Positions 53,691 to 57,950 of a stretch of 64,000 bases of DNA are shown here, in pieces (the stretch's first letter is position 1; each line of letters begins with the position of its first letter). The stretch lies in the NCBI GenBank assembly GCA_002238825.1, contig MPNC01000001.1, positions 186,001 to 250,000 of the forward strand, written 5' to 3'. Below the pieces are notes generated by a model, which was given only the letters and a program-made list of their open reading frames with translations, ran no database searches and was not told the DNA's origin. The stretch is from SAR202 cluster bacterium bin87 (lineage in GTDB: Bacteria; Chloroflexota; Dehalococcoidia; Lucifugimonadales; UBA3495). Made by a program: the position numbers and the translations under genes.

Positions 53691-54029
53691 TTGTTCCGTT
53701 CGGCCCATCCTACCACCGGACAGCCGGCGTACACGACCCGCTACGTGTACGCCGACACCACACTGTCCACCCACGGTGGCAACGTTGGCAAGGTCAGCGT
53801 TACCAGCGAGGAGCACACCCGCCTCCAACAGATGGCCGAATACCTCGAAAGATGCTGTAATGATCTGAATGCCGCTGGATACGACGTCATCGCCATTACT
53901 CCCGTCATCAGCGGCCGTACCGCCTATACGCACTCGGAAACCACCGACATCCACTCCGGCCATGGATACAGCGTCACCGATGGTCTGATCATCACCGGCC
54001 GCCTGAAGCTTCCCGAGACCAACCCATGA
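53691..54029 (+). CDS. hypothetical protein
   Basis: 112 aa starting at a TTG with GAGG 6 bp upstream. The sequence contains SEEHTRLQQMAEYLERCCNDLNAAGYDVIAI, a predicted helix-strand pair, and is otherwise featureless. It overlaps the PaREP1-type gene start by 4 bp (ATGA), so the two are translationally coupled. No family recognised. Confidence 0.5.
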   Translation: MFRSAHPTTGQPAYTTRYVYADTTLSTHGGNVGKVSVTSEEHTRLQQMAEYLERCCNDLNAAGYDVIAITPVISGRTAYTHSETTDIHSGHGYSVTDGLIITGRLKLPETNP

Positions 54030-54439
54030 CACAGTCCTCTCCCATAGAACCTTTCAACGAGCCGGCAGCAGCTATCGCGGATTATCGTCAGCAGGCCCGC
54101 GAGTTCCTGACGAAAAGCCGTGAATACCTGGCCGACGACGACCTCCATCAGGCCTCTGAAAAAGGCTGGGGAGCGGCAGCCTGGATGGCGAAAGCCGTCG
54201 CCGAAGCCCAGGGCTGGCAGTACAAACGCCACGAAGAGTTTGCTGACGTCGTCAACCGCGCCTTGCGGTTGTCGGGTGACACCAGGCTGCGACAGCTGCG
54301 CGCCGAAGCCAATGAATTGCACGGCTATTTCTATACCAGGAAACGTTTCCTGGACCCGGACGACATTGCCGAAGGTCTCGACCGCATGGTCGTGCTCCTC
54401 GACATCCTCGAACCTCTAACTGAAAACGGCACACCCTAG
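54026..54439 (+). CDS. PaREP1/HEPN-like domain protein
   Basis: 137 aa, all-helical. Resembles PaREP1-type proteins, which are HEPN-fold relatives: YRQQAREFLTKSREYLADDDLHQASEKGWG followed by AAWMAKAVAEAQGW and HGYFYTRKRFL. HEPN proteins are often RNases or partners in toxin-antitoxin systems, but the R-x4-6-H catalytic motif cannot be confirmed. Encoded in overlap with the 53691 gene, a possible two-component module. Confidence 0.65.
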   Translation: MTQSSPIEPFNEPAAAIADYRQQAREFLTKSREYLADDDLHQASEKGWGAAAWMAKAVAEAQGWQYKRHEEFADVVNRALRLSGDTRLRQLRAEANELHGYFYTRKRFLDPDDIAEGLDRMVVLLDILEPLTENGTP

Positions 54440-54448
54440 GAGTCACAC

Positions 54449-55477
54449 ATGACCAGCAGCGCAGAACGTCACGTCGAAACCGCCGACACCATCGAGGCCA
54501 TCGAGGAATGCTTCCGCATGGGGTGGACCGACGGCCTTCCCGTCGTCCCGCCCGCCGACTATAAGGTCCGCGAGATGCTCTCCACAGCTGGCCTCACCGG
54601 CGAGGAGGAACTGCTCAACCTCGACATGCGCAGCCGTGTCATCACCTCCGAAAACGCCGCCGCCAACGCCGTCATGGCCGGCTGCGAGGCCGAGTACTTC
54701 CCCGTCCTCGTTACGGCTCTGCGCACCCTGGAAGAGGAGCGCAACTTCGTCAACATGGCAGCCTCCTCCACCAGTTCTCCCAGCATCCTCATGGTCCTCA
54801 ATGGCCCGATCCGCGAGGCGCTCGGCATCAACAGCCGTGACGGTCTGTTCGGACCCGGCTTCCGCGCCAACGCCAGCATCGGCCGCGCCGTCCGCCTGTG
54901 CTTCATGAACGGCTTCGACGCCTGGCCCGGCCAACTCGACCGCGGCACCCTGGGCACCCCGGCCAAGTACACCTTCTGTATCGCCGAAAACGAGGAGACC
55001 TCCCCCTGGGAGCCCCTGCACGTCAGTCGCGGCTTCGACGCCTCCGACAGCGTGGTCACCGTCGCCGTCGCCTACAACCCGGTCAGCGTCCCCAACAGCT
55101 ACGCCCATAACGGCCGCGCAATCCTGCTCGCCATCTGCGATGCCCTGCGCTCCGCCGCCCTGGCCCATCGTTACCCTGCCCAGTGGGTCATCGTCATTGG
55201 ACCCGAGCACGCCATCACCCTCCAGGGAGACGGCTGGACGCGACGCGACATCCAGGACTTCCTGATCGAAAACAGCGGCCGTTCCCGCGCCGAGTTGGTG
55301 CGCCTCGGCTCCAAGCAGGGCCCCGAGCAGCCGGGCGACGAGGAACTCATCATGCGCTGTGCCATCGACCCCAACGACATTCTGATCATGCATGGCGGCG
55401 GCACTGGCGGCCGCTACAGCGCGATCATCGACACCACCGGCTACCGCATCCGCACGCGCAAGATCGCAGCCAACTAG
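54449..55477 (+). CDS. UGSC-neighbourhood protein with GWTDGLPVVPP motif
   Basis: 342 aa; ATG 54449 behind AGGAG. Contains FRMGWTDGLPVVPP at residues 22-35, a motif I associate with proteins encoded near UGSC selenoproteins, then GLTGEEELLNLDMRSR, GLFGPGFRANASIGRA and DILIMHGGGTGGRYSAI. No canonical catalytic motif was recognised. The selenoprotein gene lies two genes downstream, and the DUF4058 gene begins one base after this stop. Function unknown. Confidence 0.6.
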   Translation: MTSSAERHVETADTIEAIEECFRMGWTDGLPVVPPADYKVREMLSTAGLTGEEELLNLDMRSRVITSENAAANAVMAGCEAEYFPVLVTALRTLEEERNFVNMAASSTSSPSILMVLNGPIREALGINSRDGLFGPGFRANASIGRAVRLCFMNGFDAWPGQLDRGTLGTPAKYTFCIAENEETSPWEPLHVSRGFDASDSVVTVAVAYNPVSVPNSYAHNGRAILLAICDALRSAALAHRYPAQWVIVIGPEHAITLQGDGWTRRDIQDFLIENSGRSRAELVRLGSKQGPEQPGDEELIMRCAIDPNDILIMHGGGTGGRYSAIIDTTGYRIRTRKIAAN

Positions 55478-55478
55478 C

Positions 55479-56297
55479 ATGACCACCCAGCTCCCTGAAA
55501 ACCCCTTTCCGGGCATGAACCCGTACCTGGAGCGCCCTGAGCTTTGGCACGGAGTACATACCTCTGTCATCGCCGGAATGCAGCGGTGGCTTGCTCCTCG
55601 ACTGCGCCCCGAATACATGGTGCGTATTGAGGAGAGGATGTACGTTTCGGAGGAGGTTGATGGAGACGTGCTCCGCCAAGCGCGCATGCCTGACGTGATG
55701 GTGCTGGACGACGGCGCCGCAGCGTCAGCGTCGGTAGCGGTTGTGGACGCCCCCCGAAGCAAAGACGCTATTCCAGTGCGGGTGCCGTACCAGGAGGAGC
55801 AACGGCAAAGGTACCTTGAGGTAATCCGAGTGAGCAACCGCGAAGTAGTCGCCGTGATCGAACTGCTTTCGCCCAGCAACAAGAGCAGCCCCGGTCGTGA
55901 GGCATACATTGCCAAGCGCAATCAAGTGTTCCACAGCATGTCTCATCTGGTCGAGATTGACTTGCTCCGCGCGGGCCCGCCGATGCCAGTGATTGGCGAT
56001 GTGCCGCCCAGCCATTATCGAATCCTCGTCACCAATGCTCGGAACACGGACGCCATCGCTGACTTGTACCCCTGCAGCATTCAGTCGCCCATGCCCCACT
56101 TCGTGATGCCCTTGGTGGAAGGCTCTGAAGGCATAGCGATAGACTTGAAACCCATCATCGACGAGGTGTACGTCCTCGGGTCCTACGACCGTGACATCGA
56201 CTACGACAATGACCCCAACCCGCCCTTCTCTGACGCTGACCGCGCCTGGATCGACCAACTCCTCCGCAGTCGGGGGTTACGCAAACCCGCACTTTGA
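55479..56297 (+). CDS. DUF4058 family protein
   Basis: 272 aa from ATG 55479, immediately after the 54449 gene's stop. Begins MTTQLPENPFPGMNPYLE, the family opening, with IELLSPSNKSSPGREAYIAKR and VEIDLLRAGPP further in, matching the Uma2-like PD-(D/E)xK nuclease-related family. Function unknown. It is probably a passenger inside the cluster rather than part of the redox pathway. Confidence 0.8.
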   Translation: MTTQLPENPFPGMNPYLERPELWHGVHTSVIAGMQRWLAPRLRPEYMVRIEERMYVSEEVDGDVLRQARMPDVMVLDDGAAASASVAVVDAPRSKDAIPVRVPYQEEQRQRYLEVIRVSNREVVAVIELLSPSNKSSPGREAYIAKRNQVFHSMSHLVEIDLLRAGPPMPVIGDVPPSHYRILVTNARNTDAIADLYPCSIQSPMPHFVMPLVEGSEGIAIDLKPIIDEVYVLGSYDRDIDYDNDPNPPFSDADRAWIDQLLRSRGLRKPAL

Positions 56298-56357
56298 CGG
56301 TACAATCCGCCCACATAGTTCGTTCCATCCACACGCCCGGATCCACGGAGGTCTCCC

Positions 56358-56918
56358 ATGACAACCGCCGAATCGAGCCGCCTCAGGCTCGTCAACCCCA
56401 AAGGCACCGAGTTGCCCCAGTCCGAATTCCGGATGAACGACCGCTCCTCCGGCCTTGCCGGCAAGCGCCTCGGCCTGATGGAAAACTCCAAGGCCAACGC
56501 CGACAAGCTCCTGATCGAGCTCGGCAACATTCTCAACGAGCGCCACGGCTTCGCTGAGATCAAGTTCTACGACAAGGGCCACGCCAGCCTGCCGGCCAAG
56601 CCGGATATGATCGACGAGATCTTGAGTGAGGTCGACTACCTCATCACCGGGGTCGGGGATTGAGGGTCCTGCAGCTCGTGCAGTGTGCACGACGGAATCG
56701 ACATGGAAAAGCGCGGCGTCCCCACCGCGGCCATCATCACCCACGTCTTTCTCAATACCGCCCAGGCCATGACCCGCATGATGGGTGTACCCGATTATCG
56801 CTACGTGGTCGCCCAGCATCCGCTGTCCAGTCTCACCGACGATCAGGTCAAGGCTCGCGCCGCCGAGATCGCCGACGAAGTGGAGTCCATCCTGACCGGC
56901 CAGCCCGTCGCCGCCTAG
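56358..56918 (+). CDS. UGSC family selenoprotein (in-frame TGA read as selenocysteine)
   Basis: 186 aa if TGA at 56661-56663 is decoded as Sec102. ATG 56358 behind CGGAGG. The 101 residues before TGA end in DYLITGVGD; the frame continues without a break as U-GSC-SSC-SVHDGIDMEKRGVPTAAI and runs to TAG at 56918. Sec-Gly-Ser-Cys is the motif that names the UGSC family of redox proteins, described from marine metagenomes. Both halves are needed for a complete domain, and a 7-bp stem with GTG loop follows TGA. Ordinary annotation would split it into two frames. Sec machinery genes are not in the window. Confidence 0.85.
56664..56692 (+). promoter_or_regulatory. SECIS-like hairpin of the UGSC gene
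   Basis: TCGTGCA (56676-56682), GTG loop (56683-56685) and TGCACGA (56686-56692) form a perfect 7-bp stem. The loop begins 20 nt after the TGA, within the range for bacterial SECIS elements, and contains G-U. An overlapping CTGCA/TGCAG stem is an alternative fold. Confidence 0.6.
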
Positions 56919-56943
56919 CCAACCGCGTTTCCGGGCCGCCGCC

Positions 56944-57342
56944 GTGGCGACTCCCGGCATATCGCAACCGTCTCGCCTGCCCATAGACCGGGCCATCCGG
57001 CCCGGTCTGGCAGGCGAGACTCAATTGACCGTCGCCGCTGAACACCTGGCTCCCCACACCCCCAAGTTCAGCACGCCGGCAATGGTCATGCTCATGGAGC
57101 AGGCCTCATATCAAGCGGTCCTGCGCCTGCTCCACCCGATCCAGACCGTGGTCGGCTACGAGGTCAACGTAAAACACCTGGCCCCGGCGGACGCCGGGGC
57201 CCTGGTCACCGCGCGCTCCGTTCTCACCGACGTGTCCGGCAACAAGCTCCGGTTCGAAGTGGAGGTACACCACGGCGATTTGTTGCTCGGGACCGCTGAA
57301 CATAAGATGGCAATCTTAACCCAGTCCCCAATCGGCAGTTGA
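56944..57342 (+). CDS. thioesterase (hotdog fold, FlK-like)
   Basis: 132 aa from GTG 56944. Hotdog acyl-CoA thioesterase resembling fluoroacetyl-CoA thioesterase relatives: TVAAEHLAPHTPKFSTPAMVMLMEQASYQAV, GYEVNVKHLAPADAGALVTARSVL and EVEVHHGDLLLGTAEHKMAIL. Glu and Thr/His residues of the active site are plausibly present. Cleaves a short acyl-CoA. Lies between the two selenoprotein genes and may act on acyl intermediates of the same cluster. Confidence 0.82.
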   Translation: MATPGISQPSRLPIDRAIRPGLAGETQLTVAAEHLAPHTPKFSTPAMVMLMEQASYQAVLRLLHPIQTVVGYEVNVKHLAPADAGALVTARSVLTDVSGNKLRFEVEVHHGDLLLGTAEHKMAILTQSPIGS

Positions 57343-57383: not shown

Positions 57384-57950
57384 ATGTCCTGGATCCGCGA
57401 AACCGACGCCGCGGTCCCTGCGGTGATCAGTTGCATGTCCATCAACCCCGACCTCATGGCGGCGGTGCAGAACCTCAACGCCAAGGCCACCTTCGGTTCC
57501 TCAGCGCTGACCCGGACCCAGGAAGAGGCCATTGCCACGGTGGTGTCCCTGGTCAACCGCTGCCGTTATTGAGCCGTCGCCCACGGAGGGTTCCTCCGTC
57601 AGCACTCCGGCGACCCCGAATACTCCAGCCACATCATCCACGACTACACCAGGGCCGATCTCGACCCGCAGACCCGAGCCATCCTCGACTACGCGGTAAA
57701 GCTCACCCTGACCCCGGCGCTCATGCACGAGTCTGACATCGACTCGCTGCGGTCAGTCGGTCTGACCGACGAGCAGATACTGTCCACCGTCGCCATCACC
57801 TGCGTGTTCAACTTCATGAATCGGTTGGCCGACGGCCTAGGCGTCGAAATCCCCGAGGGCCGCGAAGCCATCATGGGGCAATGGCTCTCGGACGCTGCCA
57901 AGCAGGCCCAGGACTGGCTCCTTTCGTCGCAGCCGGCCGCGGTGTCGTGA
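57384..57950 (+). CDS. AhpD/CMD-family peroxidase-related selenoprotein (CxxU)
   Basis: 188 aa if TGA at 57570-57572 is decoded as Sec63; ATG 57384 has a full AGGAGG. The frame before TGA has TRTQEEAIATVVSLVNRCRY, and after it U-AVAHGGFLRQHSGDPEYS, then LDYAVKLTLTPALMHESDID and AITCVFNFMNRLADGLGV. Homologues have NRCHYC-x3-H in this place, so TGA replaces the second Cys of CxxC (Cys60, Sec63, His67). Redox peroxidase or carboxymuconolactone-decarboxylase fold. An ACGGAGG-GTT-CCTCCGT hairpin follows TGA. Confidence 0.87.
57573..57599 (+). promoter_or_regulatory. SECIS-like hairpin of the AhpD-like gene
   Basis: ACGGAGG (57583-57589), GTT loop (57590-57592), CCTCCGT (57593-57599): a perfect 7-bp stem whose loop starts 18 nt after the TGA. 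Stem length, loop size and distance match the hairpin in the UGSC gene. Confidence 0.65.

Follow-up and report, generated by a model that had tools for sequence, protein, structure and literature searches.

Selenoproteins of the "UGSC-containing" type were described by 2008, when a Global Ocean Sampling survey assigned them a likely thioredoxin fold (PMC2398784), and the family is catalogued in Pfam (PF24696) and NCBIfam (NF041046, "UGSC family (seleno)protein"). The UxxC motif of UGSC is also found in PrdB (PMC2398784), which is grouped with GrdB under PF07355. For D-proline reductase, it has been proposed that selenocysteine (Sec) attacks the substrate, that a selenoether forms, and that a cysteine of PrdB resolves it, and in glycine reduction electrons pass via thioredoxin reductase (TrxR), thioredoxin (Trx), GrdA, and GrdB (PMC3091704). 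A GrdB-like protein is used for C–F cleavage in Synergistota (PMC10838667), and UAG serves as a Sec codon in the bacterial family of Geodermatophilus, with UGSC proteins among the genes (PMC5330540).

The gene analyzed here lies in a stretch of 64,000 nucleotides (the window) from SAR202 cluster bacterium bin87 and is a further member of the UGSC family. It shares with that family the whole-domain match, the U-G-S-C motif, the SECIS hairpin, the existence of Sec and Cys forms, and fusions in some copies; nothing distinguishes it, and the genome holds eight such paralogues. The gene alone amounts to a routine annotation correction, and its surroundings weigh more. A first-pass annotation, made from the letters of the window, missed the catalogued family, the seven further copies, and two neighbors, a near-obligate partner gene 0.9 kb upstream and, 0.5 kb downstream, the start of another selenoprotein gene. 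No paper on SAR202 selenoproteins was found in the literature searched.

Reading frame and selenocysteine codon

The UGSC frame opens on the forward strand with ATG at 56358, preceded by a Shine-Dalgarno-like GGAGG (56347–56351, 6 nt 5′ of the ATG), and runs to TAG at 56916–56918, its sole interruption being the TGA at 56661–56663. This TGA corresponds to residue 102 of a 186-residue product and stands in the context GD-U-G-S-C, so the U/C-G-S-C active-site motif of the family is present. The read-through product matches PF24696 without a break over residues 11–180 (E 2.7e-57; 194.1 bits against a curated cut-off of 25; profile positions 2–171 of 172) and NF041046 with an E value of 1.8e-45 (154.6 bits, cut-off 125). 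The first-pass annotation had placed the TGA exactly at the U of the motif and had taken the frame on both sides for one continuous domain, which the profile alignments bear out. It had also foreseen that standard callers would report two fragments, the second with a false GTG start at 56685; a mechanical list of open reading frames (ORFs) ends the first fragment at 56663, and the next GTG in frame follows at 56685. Misannotation of this kind is found in the public record, where a Sec-type UGSC gene on a Paracoccus ferrooxidans plasmid (L199, 7399–9056 and 12371–14146) is entered as two hypothetical proteins; selB lies about 3 kb from the partner gene on this plasmid.

An open frame across a TGA, or a single hairpin, is weak evidence taken alone, and the 64-kb window holds 57 TGA-joined open stretches that extend for 80 codons or more both before and after the TGA. 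Chance is excluded because homology continues through the TGA, every scored relative has the same codon, and the hairpin stem covaries. Eight UGSC paralogues are present in the organism's genome (4.96 Mb in a 67-contig assembly, with a completeness rating of 100%), and in each the only TGA falls at a UG[SG]C motif. UGSC is present in 94 of 294 genomes of the class, with at least 11 copies in some, and each of the listed matches carries a single TGA. Among relatives from several phyla, 104 UGSC genes could be scored at the motif position, and all 104 have TGA; they come from class-search loci and from loci fetched with the neighboring partner protein as query, the latter chosen so as not to favor TGA. 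The near-identical gene of locus L041 keeps the TGA, which is also found in the Acidovorax and Paracoccus copies. Geodermatophilus ruber (L086) has TAG at this position, with the hairpin kept, and the codon follows the anticodon of its tRNA-Sec (CUA). Cys codons (TGC or TGT) stand at the Sec position on haloarchaeal plasmids and on plasmids of Roseovarius, Arthrobacter, Embleya, and Variovorax. Alignment with such Cys versions had been proposed in the first-pass annotation; single-ORF Cys forms span the position in Roseovarius, Arthrobacter, Natrinema, Halalkalicoccus, Halorientalis, and others, and the relatives have one protein, not two separate ones.

The hairpin (TCGTGCA-GTG-TGCACGA) is located at 56676–56692 on the forward strand, 12 nt past the TGA. 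The perfect 7-bp stem and GTG loop at SECIS distance that had been claimed for it are present, but the single-sequence fold of 50 nt was no better than that of shuffled sequence (z 0.0). Across 48 distinct UGSC sequences, 92.3% of stem cells are paired versus 77.6% when shuffled, compensatory (double) changes occur in 33 cells versus 7.7 expected, and shifting the 3′ side by 1 to 3 columns makes the signal collapse. The GU of the loop is nearly invariant, and in most Cys-type copies either the stem has decayed or this GU is gone. As judged from the alignment, the UGSC 3′ hairpin is conserved as a structure and covaries as a SECIS should. An Rfam scan of 56300–57000 yielded chance matches only.

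All four Sec genes that the first-pass annotation had suggested searching for (selA, selB, selC, and selD) are present in the organism's genome, namely those for SelA (544.5 bits), SelB (352.7 bits), tRNA-Sec (66.4 bits, anticodon UCA), and SelD (373 bits), the last itself with one TGA. In selD (L021, match 1501–2421; G000:C42:681408–682328), this TGA lies near the start, in the context CAG-U-AAK. Among the 294 class genomes, SelA was found in 84 of the 94 with UGSC versus 113 of the 200 without; several of the 10 UGSC genomes from which it is absent are incomplete assemblies or have weak UGSC matches. The proposed reading of the in-frame TGA as Sec has thus stood up, given the Sec genes, the TGA in all scored relatives, and the stem covariation, and the seemingly broken gene is almost certainly an intact selenoprotein gene, with Sec inserted at TGA 56661.

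Partner protein and gene neighborhood

On the same strand, a gene at 54449–55477 encodes a protein of 342 residues that has no match in Pfam or NCBIfam; likewise, no Pfam match was found among 84 members of this partner family. A homologue lies within about 1.5 kb of each of the eight UGSC genes in the genome, always on the same strand, and the numbers of copies are equal (eight and eight). One of these pairs is a single ORF, UGSC followed by the partner, with the TGA inside (L039, 7060–8832). Fused forms are also seen in Variovorax boronicumulans, Sporomusa, and Vibrio europaeus plasmids. In the fused relatives of Sporomusa termitida (L195, 7281–9005) and V. europaeus (L196, 7323–9008), Met replaces Sec or Cys, and the genes adjoin those for aconitase X and DUF126. 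In Halalkalicoccus and Halorientalis (L188, L191), a Cys-type UGSC gene sits between two partner genes. The partner may be "Unknown_1," a domain fused to UGSC in the 2008 survey (PMC2398784).

The partner was found in 88 of the 94 class genomes with UGSC and in none of the 200 without it (Fisher p ~1e-68, ignoring relatedness). About 10 of 80 partner loci have no UGSC gene in reach, and some contigs end there; no partner was found in viral contigs. Three motifs, TDGLPVVPP, NAVMAGC, and RANATIGRA, are invariant or nearly so. The AlphaFold model of the partner (pLDDT 92.5) shows a weak likeness to solved structures of cyclic-amide hydrolases, class I fumarase, and chorismate-mutase-like domains (best Z 7.0), and from these resemblances we claim no family. 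A relation to GrdE was considered and rejected (HHalign probability 0.1%).

Between the partner and UGSC genes lies a DUF4058 gene (55479–56297, forward strand; PF13267, E 5.6e-80), which is probably outside the module because the gene order differs at other paralogues. Two small adjacent genes, the second PaREP1/HEPN-like, occupy 53691–54439 on the forward strand, and similar small genes are found near a paralogue in L033 (3542–4308). Downstream of UGSC, a gene for an FlK-like hotdog thioesterase (56944–57342, forward strand; PF22636, E 2e-24) separates the two selenoprotein genes of the locus; it occurs near UGSC in only a few relatives, and its association with UGSC is uncertain. The second selenoprotein gene (57384–57950, forward strand, ending with TGA at 57948) encodes an AhpD-like, peroxidase-related protein (TIGR01926, E 6.2e-39, over the cut-off) with Sec in a CxxU motif. 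Its Sec codon (TGA 57570–57572) is conserved in L041 and is followed by a hairpin at 57583–57599 (7 bp, GTT loop); a standard caller would miss this gene. This neighbor resembles UGSC in having a single TGA and a hairpin, but the AhpD-like CxxU selenoproteins (TIGR01926/CMD family) form an unrelated family with Sec last (CxxU), whereas it comes first in UGSC (UxxC).

No conserved third gene was found near the UGSC–partner pairs, only scattered catabolic genes. Most UGSC neighbors are genes of oxidative catabolism, and those elsewhere include organic-acid transporters, CoA-transferases, luciferase-like monooxygenases, and amidohydrolases. Phosphosulfolactate synthase genes near the pair in Arthrobacter and Natrinema (L187, 4666–5454; L192, 5512–5979) are a possible hint at sulfonate chemistry. 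Genes of the Trx system adjoin several Cys-type pairs, in the order trxB-trxA-partner-UGSC in Arthrobacter and partner-UGSC-trxB in Roseovarius, and with trxB upstream of the pair in Variovorax sp. SRS16. TrxR-like proteins are also encoded near the pair in Haloterrigena, Variovorax boronicumulans, Halostagnicola, and Halosolutus, and the trxB/TrxR-like genes near the pair encode CxxC. Among Sec-type loci, TrxR is adjacent to the pair only in L084.

Predicted fold and comparison with GrdB

The AlphaFold2 model of UGSC, built from 72 sequences (pLDDT 88.7), is a five-stranded Rossmann-like sandwich with alternating strands and helices, in which Sec opens the helix that follows strand three. No thioredoxin-fold protein was noted among the top 50 rows of the structure search with this model, and the fold as predicted is Rossmann-like, not thioredoxin-like. 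The best structural match, a chain of the MCR activation complex (Z 11.0 over 130 residues), is not taken as kinship; Foldseek and VIA-align returned only common Rossmann-type folds, and kinship on that basis was rejected.

Before profile–profile comparison, the GrdB-family genes of the class were read through their TGA. HHalign then aligned UGSC with the Sec domain of GrdB, Sec on Sec, with a score of 42.2 and a probability of 85%; the control maxima were 19.3 for 60 column-shuffled profiles and 18.5 for six unrelated families. The probability for PrdB-like proteins was 17%. UGSC and GrdB/PrdB share the pattern U-G..., E..G.P, HP(L/I), as well as a second subunit (for UGSC, the putative role of the partner) and, in some genomes, a nearby thioredoxin system. 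Cys105, the third residue after Sec, is invariant in UGSC. Unlike GrdB, UGSC is without a long N-terminal part, its partner is not GrdE, and it sits among oxidative catabolism genes. The window UGSC protein has no match to PF07355 up to E 1, the PF07355 model stopping just before Sec. Matches to this model in L150–L165 end at the TGA, so that database searches probably overlook the Sec domain. Because there is no direct PF07355 match and the partner is not GrdE, UGSC is not counted as a GrdB/PrdB member; the profile comparison points to probable distant kinship with the Sec domain of GrdB, short of PF07355 membership.

Sequence searches of the PDB with UGSC, the partner, and GrdB gave no convincing relatives and no GrdB structure, and PF09338 (GrdE) has no match in the organism's genome. 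This genome, without GrdE, does encode a PrdB-like selenoprotein with a U-P-L-C motif (L201; G000:C9:298767–299180 onward, TGA 299181), whose frame runs on into a further domain.

Proposed mechanism and alternative readings

No description of links of UGSC to the partner, GrdB, or thioredoxin was found in the literature searched; we infer these links from sequence comparison. Based on the precedent of PrdB and glycine reductase, the invariant Cys, the TrxR genes, and the catabolic neighbors, UGSC and its partner may form a two-subunit, Trx-linked reductive enzyme for small organic substrates, a proposal to which we give almost an even chance. The insertion of Sec at TGA 56661 by SelB and Sec-tRNA(UCA), directed by the hairpin 12 nt downstream, is almost certain. 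In the proposed enzyme, UGSC would act as the nucleophile/redox subunit, while the 342-residue partner would bind the small organic substrate. Placed at the N terminus of a helix within a Rossmann domain of GrdB type, the Sec selenolate would attack the substrate, and a bond would be cleaved reductively. Cys105 would resolve the product, leaving a selenenyl-sulfide that Trx and TrxR would reduce again, and each paralogous pair would have its own substrate. Halo-acids may be among the substrates, one idea among several, since an FlK-like gene is next door and a GrdB-like protein cleaves C–F bonds in Synergistota. Taken jointly, Sec insertion and this mechanism form a reading that we consider reasonably probable. 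Several findings weigh against this joint reading: the PrdB-like match is at 17%, against 85% for GrdB, no GrdB structure came up in the PDB sequence search, the partner is unrelated to GrdE and has weak fold matches (best Z 7.0), TrxR is next to a Sec-type pair once (L084), the neighbors belong to oxidative catabolism, about 10 of 80 partner loci have no UGSC gene nearby, and 10 of 94 UGSC genomes have no SelA.

UGSC could instead be a general thiol/selenol oxidoreductase or a peroxide-defense protein, with the partner as a client or accessory. The UxxC motif and the likely thioredoxin fold assigned in 2008 (PMC2398784) would fit such a role, as would the AhpD-like selenoprotein gene nearby in the window and the peroxidase activity of GrdB reported in a title cited in PMC3091704. 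However, the predicted five-stranded Rossmann-like sandwich argues against it, the AhpD neighbor recurs in the locus of just one relative (L041), and eight paralogues, each with its own partner, fit substrate specificity better than general defense, so that we regard this role as unlikely. Less likely still, catalysis would fall to the partner, as a hydrolase or lyase, with UGSC serving only to keep it reduced or to supply a cofactor. In favor of this, invariant residues are more numerous in the partner than in UGSC, the Cys of the partner motif NAVMAGC is nearly invariant, the top Foldseek rows for the partner are barbiturase-type Toblerone folds, and it weakly resembles cyclic-amide hydrolases and class I fumarase; yet the structural resemblance is slight (Z no higher than 7.0, TM-scores near 0.2), and partners without the Cys still stand beside Sec-type UGSC (L051, L056, L078). 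Finally, TGA-spanning open frames are common in this GC-rich window (57) and the genome is a 67-contig assembly, but that the TGA is a true stop, whether in a pseudogene, through sequencing error, or between two separate proteins, is exceedingly improbable in view of the single TGA in all eight paralogues and in 104 of 104 scored genes from several phyla, including the near-identical L041, the conserved and covarying hairpin, and the single-ORF Cys homologues.

Returning to the two-subunit reductive enzyme, the fixed partner, the probable remote link to GrdB, and the link to TrxR make UGSC testable as such an enzyme, and the Cys-type copies on Roseovarius, Arthrobacter, and Variovorax plasmids would allow this without selenium machinery. 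Tentatively, and with somewhat less than even confidence, we suggest that UGSC and its partner may represent a new class of selenium-dependent, Trx-linked reductases, in which the nucleophilic Sec domain of glycine reductase would be combined with a different substrate subunit and would have been multiplied in Dehalococcoidia-type Chloroflexota against diverse small organic molecules.
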